Below, in pieces: positions 31,511-39,060 of a stretch of DNA of 64,000 bases. The notes beneath the pieces are model-generated. The model worked only from the letters and a program-made list of their open reading frames with translations. It was not told where the DNA came from and made no database searches. Origin of the DNA: Flavobacterium gilvum (GTDB lineage: Bacteria; Bacteroidota; Bacteroidia; Flavobacteriales; Flavobacteriaceae); assembly GCF_001761465.1 (NCBI RefSeq), contig NZ_CP017479.1, forward strand, positions 1-64,000. Reading direction: 5' to 3'. Position 1 is the stretch's first letter. Each line of letters opens with the position of its first letter. A program made the position numbers and the translations under genes.

Positions 31511-33691
31511 ATGAAATACTTTTTATTATTTACTGTTTTTTTTCATTCTCTACTCTATTGCCAAATTGAAAAAAAGGCGGACAGTATCGCCTATTATTCA
31601 ATATCTGCAAGCGAGAATATCAAAAACAATAATTATAAAAAAGCTTTATCATTAACTCAAAAAGCTATCGATTTCAGTAAAAAAAATAACGATTCTGAAA
31701 ACGAGGCTATCCAAACATACAACTTAGGTAAAATTTATTTTGATCTAAATCTTCATAATGATGCAATCGAATTATTAGGCAAAAGCATTAAGTTATTCAA
31801 CACCGTTTCCAATGCCCCTGATAATAAAGTAGCAAATGCCTATTACTATTTAAGTTTGTCCTATACGGAGAAAAAAAATTACCCCCTTGCCGAAATCTGT
31901 ATTTTCAATGCCGAAAAAATTAAAAAAGAATTAAACATTGACGACAAGACGGATTTAATTAATTTACAAAAAGGGATTCTCGCAAAAATAAAAGGTGACA
32001 ACGACTTGGCTTCAAACCTATTCAACAACATTATTTCAAAACCAAACAGTGACATTCTAACCTACCCAAAAGCCGAAGCCTTTTACCAAATTGGAACAAT
32101 TGAAGCTACCAACAAAAGGTATAATTTGGCTTTGAATTACTTTAACCGAGCCTTAGAATTAAATCTAAGAACTAAAAGCACGATTCAAAAGTCTAATATT
32201 TTATTAGCCCTAAGTACCGTTTACGACAAATTGCTTGACAAATCTAATGCCTTTGCCTACTTAAAAAAACATTTGAATGTAAAAGAAAGCATCGTTCTAG
32301 CCAATGAAGAAAAACTAGGCATAAACGACTATGAAGTATTCAAGGAATCCCAACGGAAACAAGAAGAATTATTACTCGAGAAAGAAAATAAAGAAAAAGA
32401 AAAAGCTGATAAATTTTCAAAACTAATAAGCATTTTAGCCATTGCAATCATATCTGTTTTATCCCTTTTGAGCTTATCTCTTTACAAAAACAATATCATT
32501 CGTAACCAAACCAATGCATTATTAAGAGAAAAAAACAATGAATTGATTGCTGCGAAAAACAAGGCAGAAGAAGCTTCCAAAGCAAGGTCTGAATTTCTTT
32601 CCACTGTAAGCCACGAACTTAGAACACCACTGAACGCCATCAACGGAATTACCCACCTTTTATTGGAAGAAAAACCAAAAAAATCACAGATGCATTATTT
32701 GTCCTCTTTAAAATTTTCGGGCAACTATTTGACCACCTTCATCAATGATATTTTGGAAATAAACAAAATTGAATCTAACAAACTCGAAATTGAATATATT
32801 AATTTCAATATCAAACAGTTATTGGGAGACATTCAAAACTCTCTAAAAGAAATTGCAACGATAAACAATAATAAATTTATTCTCAAGGTTGATCCATCCA
32901 TACCCGAAAATTTAATCGGAGACCCTACAAAACTGTCTCAAATTTTCATGAATTTAATCAACAATGCACTCAAATTCACCAATAACGGAACTGTTATTGT
33001 AGCTGCACGATTAAGAAACTACCAAAATGAAAACGCCACAATATTTTTTCAAATTGTCGACACGGGTATTGGAATTCCAGAAGATAAATTAAAAACTGTA
33101 TTCGAAAGTTTTTCGCAGGGATCGGTTGAAATCAACAGAAAATTTGGAGGCACCGGACTAGGATTAACAATCGTAAAAAAACTGGTTCGCATTTTAGGAG
33201 GCCATATCCGACTTAAAAGTATTGTTGGAGAAGGTTCTACTTTTTCTTTTGAATTGAACTTCAAAGTGGACAGCAAACCGATGTTTAAAAAAGTTACTAC
33301 CAAAAATTACAATCCAGAAATCTTTAAGAACAAAAAAATACTTGTGGTTGAAGACAATAAAATCAACCAGATGATTACCAAAAAAATGCTGGTAAACAAA
33401 GGTATGGATTGCACTATTCTGGACAATGGGGAAGACGCAATCGAAATATTGAAAGACGATACATTCGACCTGGTATTAATGGATGTTCATTTATTGGGAA
33501 TAAATGGTACTATCGCGACACAACAAATCAGGGAGTTTGACAACATAACCCCAATTCTCGCCCTTACAGCAATTTCATTAAATGAAAACAGAGAAATGTT
33601 ACTCTCATTTGGCATGACAGATGTGATTACAAAACCATTTGTCGCCGAAGATTTTTATGACACTATTGCCCAAAATTTAATCATTTCCTAA
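31511..33691 (+). CDS. TPR-containing hybrid sensor histidine kinase
   Basis: 726 aa. A signal peptide is followed by TPR-like helices (about 20-285), a membrane helix (about 304-322), a coiled coil, a HisKA domain with VSHELRTPLNAI (phospho-accepting histidine near 368), an HATPase domain with LINNALKFTNNG, DTGIGIP and GGTGLGLTIVKKL, and a C-terminal receiver domain with VVEDNKINQ and the aspartate in LVLMDVH (near 658). It senses a periplasmic signal, probably a peptide or protein through the TPRs, and relays phosphate inside one polypeptide. No output regulator is adjacent. It overlaps the convergent phosphorylase gene by four bases. Confidence 0.94.
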   Translation: MKYFLLFTVFFHSLLYCQIEKKADSIAYYSISASENIKNNNYKKALSLTQKAIDFSKKNNDSENEAIQTYNLGKIYFDLNLHNDAIELLGKSIKLFNTVSNAPDNKVANAYYYLSLSYTEKKNYPLAEICIFNAEKIKKELNIDDKTDLINLQKGILAKIKGDNDLASNLFNNIISKPNSDILTYPKAEAFYQIGTIEATNKRYNLALNYFNRALELNLRTKSTIQKSNILLALSTVYDKLLDKSNAFAYLKKHLNVKESIVLANEEKLGINDYEVFKESQRKQEELLLEKENKEKEKADKFSKLISILAIAIISVLSLLSLSLYKNNIIRNQTNALLREKNNELIAAKNKAEEASKARSEFLSTVSHELRTPLNAINGITHLLLEEKPKKSQMHYLSSLKFSGNYLTTFINDILEINKIESNKLEIEYINFNIKQLLGDIQNSLKEIATINNNKFILKVDPSIPENLIGDPTKLSQIFMNLINNALKFTNNGTVIVAARLRNYQNENATIFFQIVDTGIGIPEDKLKTVFESFSQGSVEINRKFGGTGLGLTIVKKLVRILGGHIRLKSIVGEGSTFSFELNFKVDSKPMFKKVTTKNYNPEIFKNKKILVVEDNKINQMITKKMLVNKGMDCTILDNGEDAIEILKDDTFDLVLMDVHLLGINGTIATQQIREFDNITPILALTAISLNENREMLLSFGMTDVITKPFVAEDFYDTIAQNLIIS

Positions 33692-34500
33692 TTTCTCGCT
33701 ATCAACTCACTGATTAGCTTACGCAAATGAGGCTCAGCACCTTTGGCCGCTTCCAAAACCTCATCGTGCGAAATGGTTTCTATACTTTCCTCATCGCCCA
33801 TATCAGTAATGATGGAAACACCAAAGGTTTCTAAATCCATGTGTCGTGCCACAATCACCTCAGGAACGGTTGACATTCCCACGCAATCAGCACCCATAAT
33901 CTTAACCATTCTGTATTCTGCCAAAGTTTCAAATGTTGGTCCCTGCAAGCCTAAATAAACGCCCTCATGAACCTCAATATTAAACTCATGGGCAATCTCT
34001 TTTGCCTTTGCAATCATTTCAACGGAATATGGCTGACTCATATTTACGAATCTTGGTCCAAAACGTTCATCATTTTTTCCTCGCAAAGGATGTTCCGGCA
34101 TAAAATTGATATGATCTTTGATAATCATGATTGAACCCACTTTGAAATTTGGATTCACACCTCCCGAAGCATTCGAAACAATTAATTTTTGAATACCCAA
34201 ATACTTCATCACACGTACCGGAAAAGTAACTTCCTTCATGGAATACCCTTCATAATAATGAAAGCGTCCTTGCATGGCAACCACTTTTTTACTACCAATG
34301 GTCCCAAAAACCAACGCCCCTTTATGTCCTTGAACTGTCGAAACGGGAAAATTTGGAATTTCCTCATAAGGCAACCTAAATTCAATCGCAATATCATTGG
34401 TAAAACCTCCCAATCCGGAGCCTAAAATCACCCCAAATTCCGGCGTAAAATCTATTTTGTTTTTTATATAACTAACTGTTTCTTGTACTTTGTCCCACAT
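33688..34500 (-). CDS. Purine nucleoside phosphorylase, trimeric PunA type
   Basis: 270 aa. The start MWDKVQETVSYI and ILGSGLGGF give the phosphate-binding glycine loop; GRFHYYEGYS, VSNASGGVNP and the C-terminal ADCVGMSTVPEVIVARH are typical of the trimeric family. It cleaves inosine and guanosine with phosphate to base and ribose-1-phosphate. It starts 29 bases inside the end of lpxK in another frame, so the two are coupled. Confidence 0.94.
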   Translation of the reverse strand: MWDKVQETVSYIKNKIDFTPEFGVILGSGLGGFTNDIAIEFRLPYEEIPNFPVSTVQGHKGALVFGTIGSKKVVAMQGRFHYYEGYSMKEVTFPVRVMKYLGIQKLIVSNASGGVNPNFKVGSIMIIKDHINFMPEHPLRGKNDERFGPRFVNMSQPYSVEMIAKAKEIAHEFNIEVHEGVYLGLQGPTFETLAEYRMVKIMGADCVGMSTVPEVIVARHMDLETFGVSIITDMGDEESIETISHDEVLEAAKGAEPHLRKLISELIARN

Positions 34501-35497
34501 AACTTAAAATATTTTTATCAAAATCATCTCCATCTGAAAGGAACGAACTTTTTATTGGCAAAAAATAAAGCTGTTCACTTAATATACTTCCTTTCAATCG
34601 GACATAATCTTTTTCTGTTGTTACAATAACCTTGCCGCCTGCTTTTTTCTTAATTTCTTCTAGTTCGCTTTCGCTAAAATTATGATGATCAGGAAAAGTC
34701 AGACATTCGTCATTTTCCTTTTTCAAATGTGTAAAAAATGATTCAGGCTTCGCTATTCCTGCCAAAAGTATCTTATCCATCTTTTTTACTTCGGCAACAT
34801 TTATGGTTTTTTCATTAGAATAAACCACACCATCATACTCAATAAAGGTAAAAAACAAAGTTTGATTAGAAGCCAGATTCAGTTGTTTTTTTATAGAATT
34901 TTGCTCCCCCAAGGAAAGATTTGAAGGACATTTTGTAACCACAACAATATTAGCTCTTTGCACACCACTCCTGCTTTCTCTTAAATTTCCTGTAGGCAGC
35001 ATAAAATCGTTACAATACAAATCTCCATAAGACGTAAGAAGAATATAAAATCCTGCGTTTACCTTTCTGTGCTGAAAAGTGTCATCCAATAAAATAATTT
35101 CGGGAGGATTTGAATTCAACAACAATTTTTCGATTCCATTCTTTCTATTGGCATCTACGGCAACCTGAATATTTCTGAATTTTTGATAAAATTGGAATGG
35201 TTCATCCCCCAATTGCAATGCATCAGAACTTGAATCGGCCAAAACAAAACCTTCGGATTGTCTTTTATATCCCCTGCTCAATGTCGCAACTTTGTATTTA
35301 TCTGAAAGCAACCGAATCAAATATTCAATTTGAGGTGTTTTTCCTGTTCCGCCCACGCTGAGATTTCCCACAGCAATAACAGGTAAATCAAAAGAAAATG
35401 ATTTCAAAATTCTTGCATCGAAAAGCAAATTGCGGATATTGGTAATTAAGCCATACAAAATGGCAAATGGAAATAATATTTTTCGCAGTAAATTCAT
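34472..35497 (-). CDS. lpxK: Tetraacyldisaccharide 4'-kinase
   Basis: 341 aa. An N-terminal hydrophobic helix (about 1-22) anchors it in the inner membrane. SVGGTGKTP is the Walker A motif (about 47-55), and LLDDTFQHRKV and TTEKDYVRLK are further LpxK signatures. It phosphorylates the 4' position of the lipid A disaccharide. It begins only three bases after the toxin gene, and a second copy of its first 30 bases lies at 36107-36136, upstream of the toxin-antitoxin pair. This implies that its natural promoter region is now separated from it. Confidence 0.96.
   Translation of the reverse strand: MNLLRKILFPFAILYGLITNIRNLLFDARILKSFSFDLPVIAVGNLSVGGTGKTPQIEYLIRLLSDKYKVATLSRGYKRQSEGFVLADSSSDALQLGDEPFQFYQKFRNIQVAVDANRKNGIEKLLLNSNPPEIILLDDTFQHRKVNAGFYILLTSYGDLYCNDFMLPTGNLRESRSGVQRANIVVVTKCPSNLSLGEQNSIKKQLNLASNQTLFFTFIEYDGVVYSNEKTINVAEVKKMDKILLAGIAKPESFFTHLKKENDECLTFPDHHNFSESELEEIKKKAGGKVIVTTEKDYVRLKGSILSEQLYFLPIKSSFLSDGDDFDKNILSYVGQSTRNS
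35468..35497 (-). repeat. Direct repeat (lpxK start), copy adjoining lpxK
   Basis: The first 30 bases of lpxK (codons for MNLLRKILFP), matching 36107-36136 at 28 of 30 positions in the same orientation. The two copies flank the toxin-antitoxin genes. Confidence 0.93.
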
Positions 35498-35500
35498 AAA

Positions 35501-35782
35501 TTATTTATCAAAATAATGCCCCATTGCGGAAACCACAAAAACAGTTACAATTTCAGCTTCTACTCGATAAACAATTCGGTCTTTTTTATTGATTCTCCTT
35601 GACCAATACCCTTCCAAATTATACTTTAATTCTTCGGGCTGACCTTCTCCTGAAAAGGGACTTTCAGTAAGTTCTAAAAGTATTTTTTCAATTTTTTTTA
35701 TAGTAGATTTGTTCCCCGATTTATAATGAGCCTTCAAGTTTTTACGGGCGACATCTTCAAATTCTACAAAATACTTCCCCAT
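35501..35782 (-). CDS. Txe/YoeB-family addiction-module toxin
   Basis: 93 aa, normal for a RelE/YoeB-fold mRNA interferase. SPFSGEGQPEELKYNL and GYWSRRINKKDRIVYRVE match YoeB closely, and the C-terminal SAMGHYFD carries the histidine and tyrosine expected for catalysis. It would cleave mRNA at the ribosome when free of antitoxin. It overlaps the antitoxin gene by 19 bases and ends three bases before lpxK, so lpxK transcription probably runs through the module. Confidence 0.92.
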   Translation of the reverse strand: MGKYFVEFEDVARKNLKAHYKSGNKSTIKKIEKILLELTESPFSGEGQPEELKYNLEGYWSRRINKKDRIVYRVEAEIVTVFVVSAMGHYFDK

Positions 35783-36039
35783 ATATCATCAGGATTTAAC
35801 CTTGTTGTATTTCCTTTTTTAATGTTAGCTTCAGCTTTTTTTATTTTGGCAACAAAATCAGTGCTATAAGGGCTTTTCTTCTCTGATTCGCTATCGCTCG
35901 TATCGGTTTTTTTTATTTTTTTAGAATCCGTTTCAATAATCTCAATACCTTCAACGTTTTTAAAAAAAGTCTCCGACATTGCCATAAATGCCTTTCCTGC
36001 TTTTGTGCGCTCGTTAATTTTTATGGTTATTGTAGTCAT
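35764..36039 (-). CDS. Antitoxin of the Txe/YoeB pair, DUF2683-like
   Basis: 91 aa. The N-terminal TTITIKINERTKAGKAFMAM resembles antitoxins paired with Txe/YoeB toxins in Bacteroidota (DUF2683-like). The middle is acidic and lysine-rich and probably unfolded (about 40-62), and the C-terminal NTTRLNPDDIWGSIL likely wraps the toxin. TACATTTG at 36058-36065 on the same strand is a good -7 box. The start lies 10 bases after the stop of the short frame that continues from the duplicated lpxK start. Confidence 0.85.
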   Translation of the reverse strand: MTTITIKINERTKAGKAFMAMSETFFKNVEGIEIIETDSKKIKKTDTSDSESEKKSPYSTDFVAKIKKAEANIKKGNTTRLNPDDIWGSIL

Positions 36040-36057
36040 GACTATTGATTTAATTCA

Positions 36058-36065
36058 CAAATGTA
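36058..36065 (-). promoter_or_regulatory. Putative toxin-antitoxin -7 box (TACATTTG)
   Basis: TACATTTG on the minus strand matches TAnnTTTG, 18 bases before the antitoxin ATG. No obvious TTTG at the -33 position. Confidence 0.45.
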
Positions 36066-36106
36066 CAAAATATCACGGTTTTTATTTGGTAAAAAAAAGC
36101 ATGCTT

Positions 36107-36136
36107 GGGAAACAATATTTTTCGCAGTAAATTCAT
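36107..36136 (-). pseudogene. Fossil lpxK start upstream of the toxin-antitoxin pair
   Basis: ATG at 36136 and the next nine codons read MNLLRKILFP, the same as the start of lpxK, with two silent base changes. After the tenth codon the sequence diverges; the frame continues for 18 unrelated codons and stops at 36050. It is best read as what remains of the original lpxK start after insertion of the module. Confidence 0.88.
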
Positions 36137-36156
36137 TTTACGAAAGTTTAATATTT

Positions 36157-36164
36157 TATCTTTG
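36157..36164 (+). promoter_or_regulatory. Putative -7 box (TATCTTTG) of the Nif3-coiled-coil operon
   Basis: TATCTTTG fits TAnnTTTG and lies 111 bases before the Nif3-like gene, in the divergent region shared with the lpxK side. Confidence 0.45.
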
Positions 36165-36275
36165 AACGGAAATTATTAAAAACAAACTGATAGCAACTTT
36201 TTAGATAAATTTCAAACATTTTGTGTTATTAGTTTATAAAAATACAGCAAACAAATATCCTGAAAAGATTAAAAA

Positions 36276-37373
36276 ATGAGTACAATAAAAGAAATTCTTT
36301 CAGTTCTTGAAACAATGGCTCCATTAGCTTACGCCGAAGATTTTGACAATGTTGGTTTAATAATTGGGGACGAAAATGCAAAAGCAACCGGAATTTTGGT
36401 TTGCCACGATGCCTTGGAAAATGTAATTAACGAAGCCATCACAAAAAAATGCAACTTGGTAGTGTCTTTCCACCCAATTTTATTTGATGGAATAAAAAAA
36501 ATAACAGGAAAAAATTATGTAGAACGAGCACTTCTAAAAGCAATCAAAAATGACATTGCCATCTACGCCGTACATACTGCCTTAGACAATCACCCGGAAG
36601 GTGTAAACAAAATATTTTGCGAAACCCTAGGCCTTGTGAAAACTGAGATTTTGATTCCAAAACAAAATCATATCCGAAAATTAGTTACTTATACCATCCG
36701 TGACAATGCCGAAAAAGTTCGAAATGCTTTATTTGAAGCAGGAGCGGGAAGCATTGGGAATTATGACAAATGCAGTTTCAACTCAGAGGGTACTTTTACG
36801 TATCAAGGAAACGAAAAAAGCGAACCCACTATTGGTGAACGAGGCGTGCTTTCTAGAGGAACCGAGGTTAAAATTGAGGTTGTTTACGCCAAGCATTTGG
36901 AAGCCAAAATAATAAAAGCATTGAGAGAAAACCATATCTACGAAGAAGTTGCCACCGAAATCTACAATATGAAGAACACTTTTAAACATATTGGTTTGGG
37001 AATGATCGGAGAACTCGAAGAACCAATGGATGAAAAGGATTTTCTACAATTTGCAAAAGACAAAATGGGTGCCAACGGAATTCGTCACTCGGCCTTTACA
37101 GGAAAAAAAGTAAAAAAAGTGGCCGTCTTGGGAGGTTCTGGAAGTTTTGCCATTAAAAATGCAATTCAGGCCGGAGCCGACGTTTATTTGACTTCTGATT
37201 TGAAATACCATCAATATTACGAGGCAGAAAATCAACTTTTATTGGCAGATATCGGACATTTTGAAAGTGAGCGTTATACAAAAGAGTATATTGTTGATTA
37301 TCTTAGAAAAAAAATTCCTAATTTTGCAATCATTTTATCGGAAGAAAATACAAATCCAGTTAAGTACTTATAG
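36276..37373 (+). CDS. Nif3-like dinuclear metal-centre hexameric protein
   Basis: 365 aa, the long form with a central insert (about 125-240) of the PII-like type. N-terminal motifs are YAEDFDNVGLIIGD and VVSFHPILFDGIKK, where the first of the usual two adjacent histidines is phenylalanine. The C-terminal part has LTSDLKYHQYYEA and LADIGHFESE with metal-binding histidine and glutamate. Members form hexameric toroids with two metals. Suggested roles include GTP cyclohydrolase-like hydrolysis, but the substrate is not settled. The coiled-coil gene follows after 3 bases. Confidence 0.92.
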   Translation: MSTIKEILSVLETMAPLAYAEDFDNVGLIIGDENAKATGILVCHDALENVINEAITKKCNLVVSFHPILFDGIKKITGKNYVERALLKAIKNDIAIYAVHTALDNHPEGVNKIFCETLGLVKTEILIPKQNHIRKLVTYTIRDNAEKVRNALFEAGAGSIGNYDKCSFNSEGTFTYQGNEKSEPTIGERGVLSRGTEVKIEVVYAKHLEAKIIKALRENHIYEEVATEIYNMKNTFKHIGLGMIGELEEPMDEKDFLQFAKDKMGANGIRHSAFTGKKVKKVAVLGGSGSFAIKNAIQAGADVYLTSDLKYHQYYEAENQLLLADIGHFESERYTKEYIVDYLRKKIPNFAIILSEENTNPVKYL

Positions 37374-37376
37374 AAT

Positions 37377-38156
37377 ATGGCGAATACGAAAGAATTAAGT
37401 GTTGAGGACAAGTTAAGAGCAATTTACGATTTACAGCTAATTGACTCTAGAATTGACGAAATCAGAAACGTTAGAGGAGAACTTCCTTTAGAAGTTGAAG
37501 ATTTAGAAGATGAAGTTGCAGGTTTAAGCACTCGTTCAGAGAAATTGAAAGGCGAACTCGAAGTAATCGAAAACCTTATCAAAGAGAAAAAAAATGCAAT
37601 TGACGAACACAAAGAAGCTGTCAAAAAATACACCAAACAACAAGAAAGCGTTCGTAACAACCGCGAATTCAACTCTTTGACAAAAGAAGTAGAGTTTCAG
37701 GAATTGGAAATTCAATTGGCCGAAAAGCAAATCAAAGAAATGAAAGCTTCTATAGAGCACAAAAAAGAAATGATTGCTACTTCAAAAGAAAAATTAGAAG
37801 CTAAATTGGCTCACTTAAAACATAAAAAATCAGAACTTGATGCTATCATGTCTGAAACTCAAAAAGAGGAGACATTCTTAACTGAGAAATCAGCTGAATT
37901 CGAAGCATTGATTGAAGATCGCTTATTAGCTGCCTACAAAAGAATCAGAAGCAGTGTTCGCAACGGACTAGCAGTTGTTTCTATCGAAAGAGGAGCATCC
38001 GCAGGATCATTTTTCACAATTCCACCACAAACACAAGTAGAAATCGCATCAAGAAAGAAAATCTTAATCGATGAACACTCAGGAAGAATTTTGGTTGACA
38101 CCGTTCTAGCTCAGGAAGAAAGAGAAAAAATGGAACAATTATTTGCAACATTCTAA
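37377..38156 (+). CDS. Coiled-coil protein of the C4 zinc-ribbon (CdsZ/DUF164) family lacking the cysteines
   Basis: 259 aa. A long coiled coil (about 30-185) is followed by the C-terminal domain that in relatives holds a CxxC...CxxC zinc ribbon. Here the first pair reads RGASAGSFFTIPPQ and the second IDEHSGRILVD: all four cysteines are replaced (Ser, Ser, Asp, Ser), while the surrounding IPPQ and GRILVD are intact. The protein is therefore a real family member that should not bind zinc there. It is paired with the Nif3 gene, a usual arrangement. Function uncertain. A good terminator follows. Confidence 0.9.
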   Translation: MANTKELSVEDKLRAIYDLQLIDSRIDEIRNVRGELPLEVEDLEDEVAGLSTRSEKLKGELEVIENLIKEKKNAIDEHKEAVKKYTKQQESVRNNREFNSLTKEVEFQELEIQLAEKQIKEMKASIEHKKEMIATSKEKLEAKLAHLKHKKSELDAIMSETQKEETFLTEKSAEFEALIEDRLLAAYKRIRSSVRNGLAVVSIERGASAGSFFTIPPQTQVEIASRKKILIDEHSGRILVDTVLAQEEREKMEQLFATF

Positions 38157-38164
38157 TACAAATT

Positions 38165-38190
38165 AAGTCCCGATTTATCGGGACTTTTTT
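38165..38190 (+). terminator. Terminator of the Nif3-coiled-coil operon
   Basis: AAGTCCCGA (38165-38173), loop TTTA, TCGGGACTT (38178-38186), then a T-run: a textbook rho-independent terminator. Confidence 0.88.
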
Positions 38191-38202
38191 ATCCCCCCTA
38201 TT

Positions 38203-39060
38203 TTGAACCTTAAAAAAAGCATACGATTCTTGGTTGCCAAATCTGTTGGGCAATACATAAACCTGCTCCATTTTGTGCACCCAAAAAAAGCAGTGCATTT
38301 ATCCTATGCGCTTTTTACCAATCCAAGAGTAGGTAAAATACAAAAGGAAAACCTTCCTGCAATTTTACAAAACACCGTTAAAGAAACGTTCCAACACAAC
38401 GAGCATTATTTCCAGACCTACACCTGGGAAGGAAACGAGACTAAAATCCTATTGGTTCACGGCTGGGAAAGCAATTCGGCACGCTGGGAAAAAACACTAC
38501 CCTATCTCCAAAAATCAGGAAGTACAATCATCGCTATAGATGCACCGGCACACGGACAAAGTAGCGGAAAAGAATTCAACGTACCGCGTTATGCCGAATT
38601 TATCAACAAAGCGGTAAAAAAATACAATCCAAGTATTATCATTGGCCATTCCATAGGTGGTTCGGCTTGTATTTATCACCAATATTTACACCCAGAAACT
38701 AGCATTGAAAAAATGATAATTCTAGGCGCTCCGTCTGATTTAAAGACACTCCTCGATAATTATATCCAAATGTTGAGCCTAAACCGAAAAATGTTTCGTC
38801 TTTTGGAAAAACGCTATCTGGAAAATTTCAATTTCAAACTGGACAATTTCTCGGGTGAAGCATTTGCACAGCACATCAAAATAGATGGAATCATCGCTCA
38901 CGACACTACAGACTCCGTTGTTTCCTACCAAGAAGGCCAAAAAATAGCGAATGGCTGGAAAAAAGGAAAATTCATTACAACCAACGATTTGGGACATTCT
39001 ATGCACGATGATAATTTATACCAAGAAATCTATCGTTTTTTATTTGAAGCCAAAAAATAG
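38203..39060 (+). CDS. Alpha/beta hydrolase
   Basis: 285 aa. TTG start at 38203, the only start that keeps the N-terminal part; the next methionine is far downstream. LLVHGWESNSARW is the oxyanion-side motif, GHSIGGSA the nucleophile elbow with the serine, and LGHSMH the catalytic histidine. This resembles lysophospholipase or carboxylesterase-type hydrolases. Substrate unknown. It is separated from the preceding gene by a terminator. Confidence 0.86.
   Translation: MNLKKSIRFLVAKSVGQYINLLHFVHPKKAVHLSYALFTNPRVGKIQKENLPAILQNTVKETFQHNEHYFQTYTWEGNETKILLVHGWESNSARWEKTLPYLQKSGSTIIAIDAPAHGQSSGKEFNVPRYAEFINKAVKKYNPSIIIGHSIGGSACIYHQYLHPETSIEKMIILGAPSDLKTLLDNYIQMLSLNRKMFRLLEKRYLENFNFKLDNFSGEAFAQHIKIDGIIAHDTTDSVVSYQEGQKIANGWKKGKFITTNDLGHSMHDDNLYQEIYRFLFEAKK

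Follow-up and report, generated by a model that had tools for sequence, protein, structure and literature searches.

The toxin-antitoxin (TA) module that precedes lpxK, an essential gene of lipid A synthesis, in the window (the whole 64,000-nt stretch of Flavobacterium gilvum DNA analysed here) is a real insertion with duplication of its target. It is not unique, being one of many insertions at the same place across the genus. We lean towards the view that such modules, which carry no recombinase, spread by recombination with lpxK as their address and take over transcription of this gene, a route and a dependence that we infer from comparing loci.

On the minus strand the locus comprised, in order, a remnant of the native lpxK promoter, an outer copy of the lpxK start, the antitoxin, the toxin, a 3-nt spacer and a complete lpxK. 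The divergent Nif3/DUF34 gene (36276..37373, plus strand; Pfam PF01784, E 2.4e-76) formed the left flank. The remnant, AACTTTCGTA (36139..36148, minus strand), matched the box of relatives, TACTTTCGTA, at 9 of 10 positions, and was followed by the outer copy (36107..36136, minus strand), recognised by repeat search, shuffles and comparison with relatives. Next came TACATTTG (36058..36065, minus strand), a sigma-A-type -7 box (TAnnTTTG, the consensus in the excerpt of PMC6847099) belonging to the TA operon and the putative promoter now serving lpxK. The antitoxin gene (35764..36039, minus strand; 91 aa; Pfam DUF2683, E 9.7e-13) overlapped at its end with the start of the toxin gene (35501..35782, minus strand; 93 aa; Txe/YoeB family, Pfam YoeB_toxin, E 6e-20). 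Read directly, three nucleotides (35498..35500, minus strand) separated the toxin stop from the ATG of lpxK (34472..35497, minus strand), an intact gene for a tetraacyldisaccharide 4'-kinase of 341 aa (Pfam PF02606, E 3e-77; TIGR00682). The inner copy (35468..35497, minus strand), found by direct reading and by repeat search, is the actual start of lpxK.

The toxin resembled Txe/YoeB toxins in scoring above the family cut-offs (75.3 bits against TIGR02116, cut-off 51.8; 71.5 against Pfam YoeB_toxin, cut-off 27) and in its similarity to solved YoeB chains (PDB 2a6q). Most of the protein was covered, placing it in the Txe/YoeB family, and its activity as a toxin is predicted from this membership. 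In yefM-yoeB systems the antitoxin is of the YefM/Phd type. Unlike the named YefM/Axe families, however, the window antitoxin had DUF2683 as its sole Pfam match and matched no NCBIfam model, and we did not assign the pair to yefM-yoeB. PADLOC matched neither protein. By eye, unlike toxins were seen behind similar antitoxins across the short gene overlap (35764-35782 in the window, and homologous loci), which suggests toxin exchange at this overlap.

Antitoxin and toxin were the sole ORFs of 50 aa or more between the two copies of the lpxK start. With no integrase or transposase among the ORFs of this size, and with the module ends joined by none of the 15 inverted-repeat pairs listed, a transposon or insertion sequence was rejected; an integrase-borne island was rejected for want of an integrase ORF in the inserted stretch. 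No tRNA was found at 33000-39000. A DNA search of the genome for a second copy of the module returned just a 25-nt AT-rich match at 1,452,693, in an intergenic stretch, which we judged to be due to chance.

The two copies of the lpxK start (35468-35497 and 36107-36136) were identical at 28 of 30 positions, both by direct reading and in the repeat search (family D1, spacing 639), and the two differences were silent on the minus strand (TTA/TTG for Leu, CCA/CCC for Pro). None of 300 shuffled lpxK starts reached the score of this repeat, ruling out a chance match. Direct reading, repeat search, ORFs and Pfam matches thus upheld what the first-pass annotation had reported, namely a recurring lpxK start with two silent changes, enclosing just an antitoxin gene and a Txe/YoeB toxin gene whose end is three bases from lpxK. 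Over its first 29 nt the outer copy equalled the native lpxK start of genomes G150 and G156 and of several other relatives (29/29). The inner copy differed from the native start of those relatives at 1 base of 30, and the 5′ end of the inner lpxK looked native for the clade over both 60 and 240 nt, so any donor tract would have to be very short; none was recognisable in lpxK on sequence comparison with the clade. This native-looking end is equally compatible with a duplication of resident DNA and with homologous exchange. Nif3 DNA diverged by about 15% between the window and G150, at which divergence the chance that 29 neutral bases stay unchanged is about 1% (0.85 to the power 29, our own arithmetic). 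Since the outer copy is intact over 29 nt despite this divergence, the insertion in the window is probably recent.

Empty sites were sought by comparing window positions 35400-36300 with 398 Flavobacterium genomes, 304 of which gave some match. In G150, G156 and G056 the lpxK-side and Nif3-side matches overlapped by 29 nt, and a single lpxK start stood directly behind an intact native promoter. The same 29-nt overlap was found in the more distant G274. Insertion with long target duplication is defined by a relative that lacks the insert and by target sequence repeated directly at both borders, and both were found. In the tree of Nif3 sequences the window fell in a group of 10 loci with a support of 100, consisting of two TA loci (the window and G287), three empty loci (G150, G156 and G056) and five loci with a TPR gene. 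In these last five close relatives (L212-L216) a TPR gene of 423-424 aa lay between eroded lpxK-start sequence and lpxK, which retained a TTTTACTTTCGTA-type promoter; the cargo differed and the address was the same. The TPR identity is from Pfam, run for L212.

These comparisons bore out the first-pass annotation in its prediction that related Flavobacterium would show a single lpxK start facing the Nif3 gene. They also agreed with its reading of the outer copy as a remnant: the copy was absent from empty sites and was eroding in other filled sites, and a conserved regulatory leader of lpxK was ruled out. Of its account of the event, insertion of a module with a duplicated target stood, given the empty sites and the remnant. 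An attachment site or random transposition, which it had also allowed, became less likely, given the lack of a recombinase ORF and the recurrent, fixed place.

This recurrence was surveyed in 147 lpxK loci, the window included, from 150 genomes; lpxK was missing from two of these and G125, with a partial gene, was left out. Sixty-nine loci were empty, 31 had a toxin ending 2-5 nt before lpxK (toxin ends were scanned only from -14 to +9 of lpxK), 37 held something else and 10 lacked Nif3 in the available DNA. The 93-aa toxin frame was open in 29 of the 31 TA loci, and the other two (L093 and L168) were degraded. In a further locus (L307) the gap between toxin and lpxK was 1, and in L222 the toxin lacked its usual stop and read 4 nt into lpxK. 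Disrupted toxin frames ahead of lpxK were also seen in L225, L300, L296 and L299, which are degrading modules. The antitoxin query matched in 40 of the 150 genomes. Its matches at E 1e-15 or better numbered 32, of which 31 adjoined lpxK and one (G138 C3) lay ahead of a tadA-like gene.

A strict junction pattern searched in 84,980 genomes returned 73 stretches, 68 with lpxK at the junction. The 93-aa frame was open in 62 of these, cut by the locus edge in three and disrupted in three. Fifty-four were labelled Flavobacterium, and the other 14 were mostly from Flavobacteriaceae or Bacteroidetes bins, with odd labels including Lentimicrobium and Rhizobium. This pattern, which the window itself fails, detected no TA-lpxK junction outside Flavobacterium in 299 genomes of the family, among which the genus was represented only by the window's own genome and G060, making this a weak negative. 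Toxin matches at E 1e-12 or better occurred in 11 of 249 family genomes including that of the window, and the other 10 loci had no lpxK or Nif3 in the available DNA. No earlier description of TA modules at lpxK was present among the literature matches listed, a set of titles and abstract openings in which subscription papers were mostly out of scope.

Of 73 loci compared with 300 shuffles, ten had an outer copy of the lpxK start that was significant at p<0.02, where about 1.5 would be expected, and 63 had none at this level. G287 (L217) and L299, both with p 0.027, were next in rank and were not counted among the ten. Altogether 75 loci were tested, two of which (L255 and L298) were discounted as lying at a locus edge. 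The test omitted the degraded L093 and L168 and the long or tandem intervals of L082, L116, L121, L124, L128 and L135, some omitted loci re-entering as copies from the junction-pattern search. Ten loci chosen for their outer copy, G287 included, had the same junction and left flank when aligned. Just inside the left junction of the window lay a 10-nt palindrome, AAGCATGCTT (36097-36106), with a T-run next to it on the minus strand; other loci had AAGCGCTT or AAGTACTT at this position, which by eye was palindromic in 4 of 10 aligned loci.

Two modules with different toxin types were found in tandem in G121, and the 84 nt between them matched the adjoining lpxK start at 79 of 84 positions; remnant and inner copy gave no clear donor signal. 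In a second tandem, in G028 (L121), just 68 nt separated the modules. The duplicates of the lpxK start were 29 nt long in the window, about 84 nt in G121 and, by eye, about 50 nt around a TPR gene in G112. The loci compared revealed neither a recombination intermediate nor a circle or a donor.

The Nif3 tree (145 rows, 16 of them picked for matching the query) required at least 27 changes of state in TA presence, 11 of them forced by starred branches alone; the tree is unrooted, so that gains are not separable from losses, and L093, L094, L168 and L225 were counted as TA. Shuffled labels gave a mean of 34.0 changes and in none of 500 shuffles as few as 27, so the TA label is partly clade-structured. 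Between some distant species toxin DNA was closer than Nif3 DNA, with identities of 0.82 and 0.73, respectively, for the window and L071, and of 0.88 and 0.73 for L010 and L083. The toxin-minus-Nif3 difference reached values as low as -0.15 as well across the 319 toxin pairs with an identity above 0.72, and toxin exchange could be the cause of such negative values. G287, of the same group as the window, had a different toxin, outside the 15 nearest to that of the window (which reach down to 0.70). The toxin tree, built on few columns and with weak forks, accommodated 40 toxins at lpxK and 16 elsewhere with 4 changes of location, where shuffles needed 14.2. The lpxK toxins mostly cluster apart from copies elsewhere, which suggests that modules mostly move from lpxK to lpxK.

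Promoter motifs were compared in 72 empty and 37 filled loci, with L093 and L168 left out. In the empty loci TACTTTCG occupied positions -12 to -5 relative to the lpxK ATG; agreement was 90-96% at six of these positions and 81 and 89% at the remaining two. The native box in its 10-nt form stood directly before lpxK in 64 of the 72, matching at 9-10 of 10 positions. The box TAnTTTCG was within 20 nt of the lpxK ATG in 60 of the 72 empty loci; of the 37 filled loci, one had it within 150 nt of lpxK. All 37 filled loci had TAnnTTTG ahead of the antitoxin (4.3 expected), and none had it within 150 nt of lpxK (4.0 expected, as estimated by plain shuffles that ignore codon use); its absence from the toxin's end may be a codon-use effect. 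In the interval from Nif3 to the antitoxin none of the 37 filled loci had the old box complete, and three (the window, G287 and L092) matched it at 9 of 10 positions, with different changes in the window and G287.

The excerpt of PMC6847099 places the -7 element, TAHHTTTG, at positions -12 to -5 relative to the start site, and lpxK mRNA in empty sites would therefore be expected to begin at the ATG itself. The native lpxK motif, a putative promoter, has a C at -6 and so departs by one base from TAnnTTTG. A CGT box is mentioned for ECF sigma factors in the excerpt of PMC9723704, and a different sigma factor at the native lpxK promoter is possible. A hairpin and T-run directly followed the toxin stop (by eye) in about 12 of the 18 copies located away from both lpxK and tadA; the 2-5 nt before lpxK are too short for these. 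In filled sites, lpxK appears to have lost its own promoter and moved onto that of the module. The suggestion of the first-pass annotation that an addiction module is tied to lpxK thus gained indirect backing from the loss of the promoter motif, and the dependence itself is presumed.

Under the reading that we favour, a Txe/YoeB-type module would have entered the window lineage recently at the lpxK start, bringing no recombinase. It would travel among Flavobacterium species on DNA that already joins module and lpxK start. Such DNA would pair with the resident lpxK start, and recombination would leave a resident outer copy and a complete inner lpxK. With a donor bearing the lpxK start on both sides, both crossovers, or the single crossover of a circle, could fall within the 29-nt repeat and produce the clean structure of the window. 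Homology on one side only would make the other joint illegitimate and the remnant variable in length. After insertion lpxK would be the third gene of an antitoxin-toxin-lpxK operon read from the module promoter, and with decay of the native promoter, lpxK expression would suffer if the module were lost, a putative addiction effect. The fixed right end and the left junction common to ten loci favour recombination through lpxK over an attachment site or random transposition.

Resident DNA may instead have been duplicated at each insertion, by a staggered break, a template switch or one-ended insertion, incoming lpxK homology playing no part. Such an origin agrees with the clade-native sequence of both window copies, with the varying length of the duplicates, and with the long, variable target duplications described for restriction-modification systems in the excerpt of PMC3031569. 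Random duplications should vary, however, whereas the right end was placed 2-5 nt from the lpxK ATG in 31 loci and the left junction was common to ten, and the lpxK-located toxins formed few lineages; we consider this origin somewhat unlikely.

Also weighed was a single ancient insertion ahead of lpxK, passed on by vertical descent with many losses, some of them through recombination between the repeats that restored an empty site, without re-entry. The shared left junction could reflect one old insertion with many losses, and precise deletion of a module is possible between direct repeats; clustering of lpxK-located toxins and the degraded modules in L093, L094, L168 and L225 point the same way. 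We nevertheless think this history improbable, since the similarities of toxins and of Nif3 disagree, and since the window's outer copy is intact beside neighbouring DNA of about 15% divergence whereas that of G287, in the same group, is eroded. The G287 toxin, moreover, falls outside the 15 nearest to that of the window although the species are close, and the G121 tandem calls for a later entry at least once. A single preferred site, direct repeats and clean module flanks would also be expected if an integrase supplied in trans acted on the 29-nt repeat as an attachment site at the lpxK start. Repeats of both 29 and 84 nt at the same gene, the lack of a recombinase ORF in the inserted stretch and family copies before tadA-like genes without such a repeat make this highly improbable.

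Restriction-modification genes were reportedly found by Nobusato et al. in 2000 to insert with long target duplication. As in these insertions (excerpt of PMC3031569), an addiction-type pair at lpxK is flanked by a long, variable direct repeat of the target; unlike in them, the cargo is a TA module and its right end is fixed at one gene start in many species. Homology-facilitated illegitimate recombination is proposed for effector-immunity arrays of Vibrio cholerae in the excerpt of PMC5361080, and the favoured reading resembles this proposal in that one-sided homology would anchor incoming DNA and successive entries would leave remnants, as in G121. The arrays differ in that immunity genes are left behind, whereas pieces of the lpxK start remain in Flavobacterium. 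Chromosomal type II TA modules between housekeeping genes, ccd in folA-apaH of E. coli O157:H7 and parDE in relA-mazG of Salmonella, are covered in the excerpt of PMC7167474, where their mode of movement is called unelucidated. They share with the lpxK locus a small TA pair at a preferred place beside core genes and other elements in the same slot. The lpxK locus differs from these slots, as described there, in showing an empty site, a duplicated start, tandem re-entry and promoter loss, with lpxK 2-5 nt after the toxin.

Because a single genus offers empty sites alongside a fresh insertion, others that are eroded, a tandem re-entry and modules in decay, the question becomes open to testing. 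A suggested route to persistence is takeover of host-gene transcription, without killing of module-free cells. More tentatively, mobile addiction modules may form an enzyme-free class in which the start of an essential gene is carried along or regenerated as an address. Such modules would enter ahead of this gene across species through ordinary recombination and become costly to lose as its promoter decays, so that promoter capture rather than post-segregational killing would explain their persistence.

Members of the same TA family were also seen in G271, G138 and G068 (L227:1558-2303, L229:994-1734 and L228), where a tadA-like deaminase gene follows them at a distance of 15-43 nt. The toxin match in G068 covered residues 26-93 only, and the deaminase gene of L229 scored 128 bits against a TadA cut-off of 150 and matched Pfam deaminase families. 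The gene start was not duplicated at these three sites, where the best upstream match was 16-17/30. The first-pass annotation had proposed looking for 30-bp repeats at other TA borders; none was seen at the borders tested, those of the three tadA-like sites and of a 231-aa gene in L306 (best 15-17/30), and a general occurrence of such repeats was not supported. In L332, from outside the genus, a gyrA/parC-like gene, identified by eye from its sequence, began 32 nt after the end of a toxin of this superfamily.
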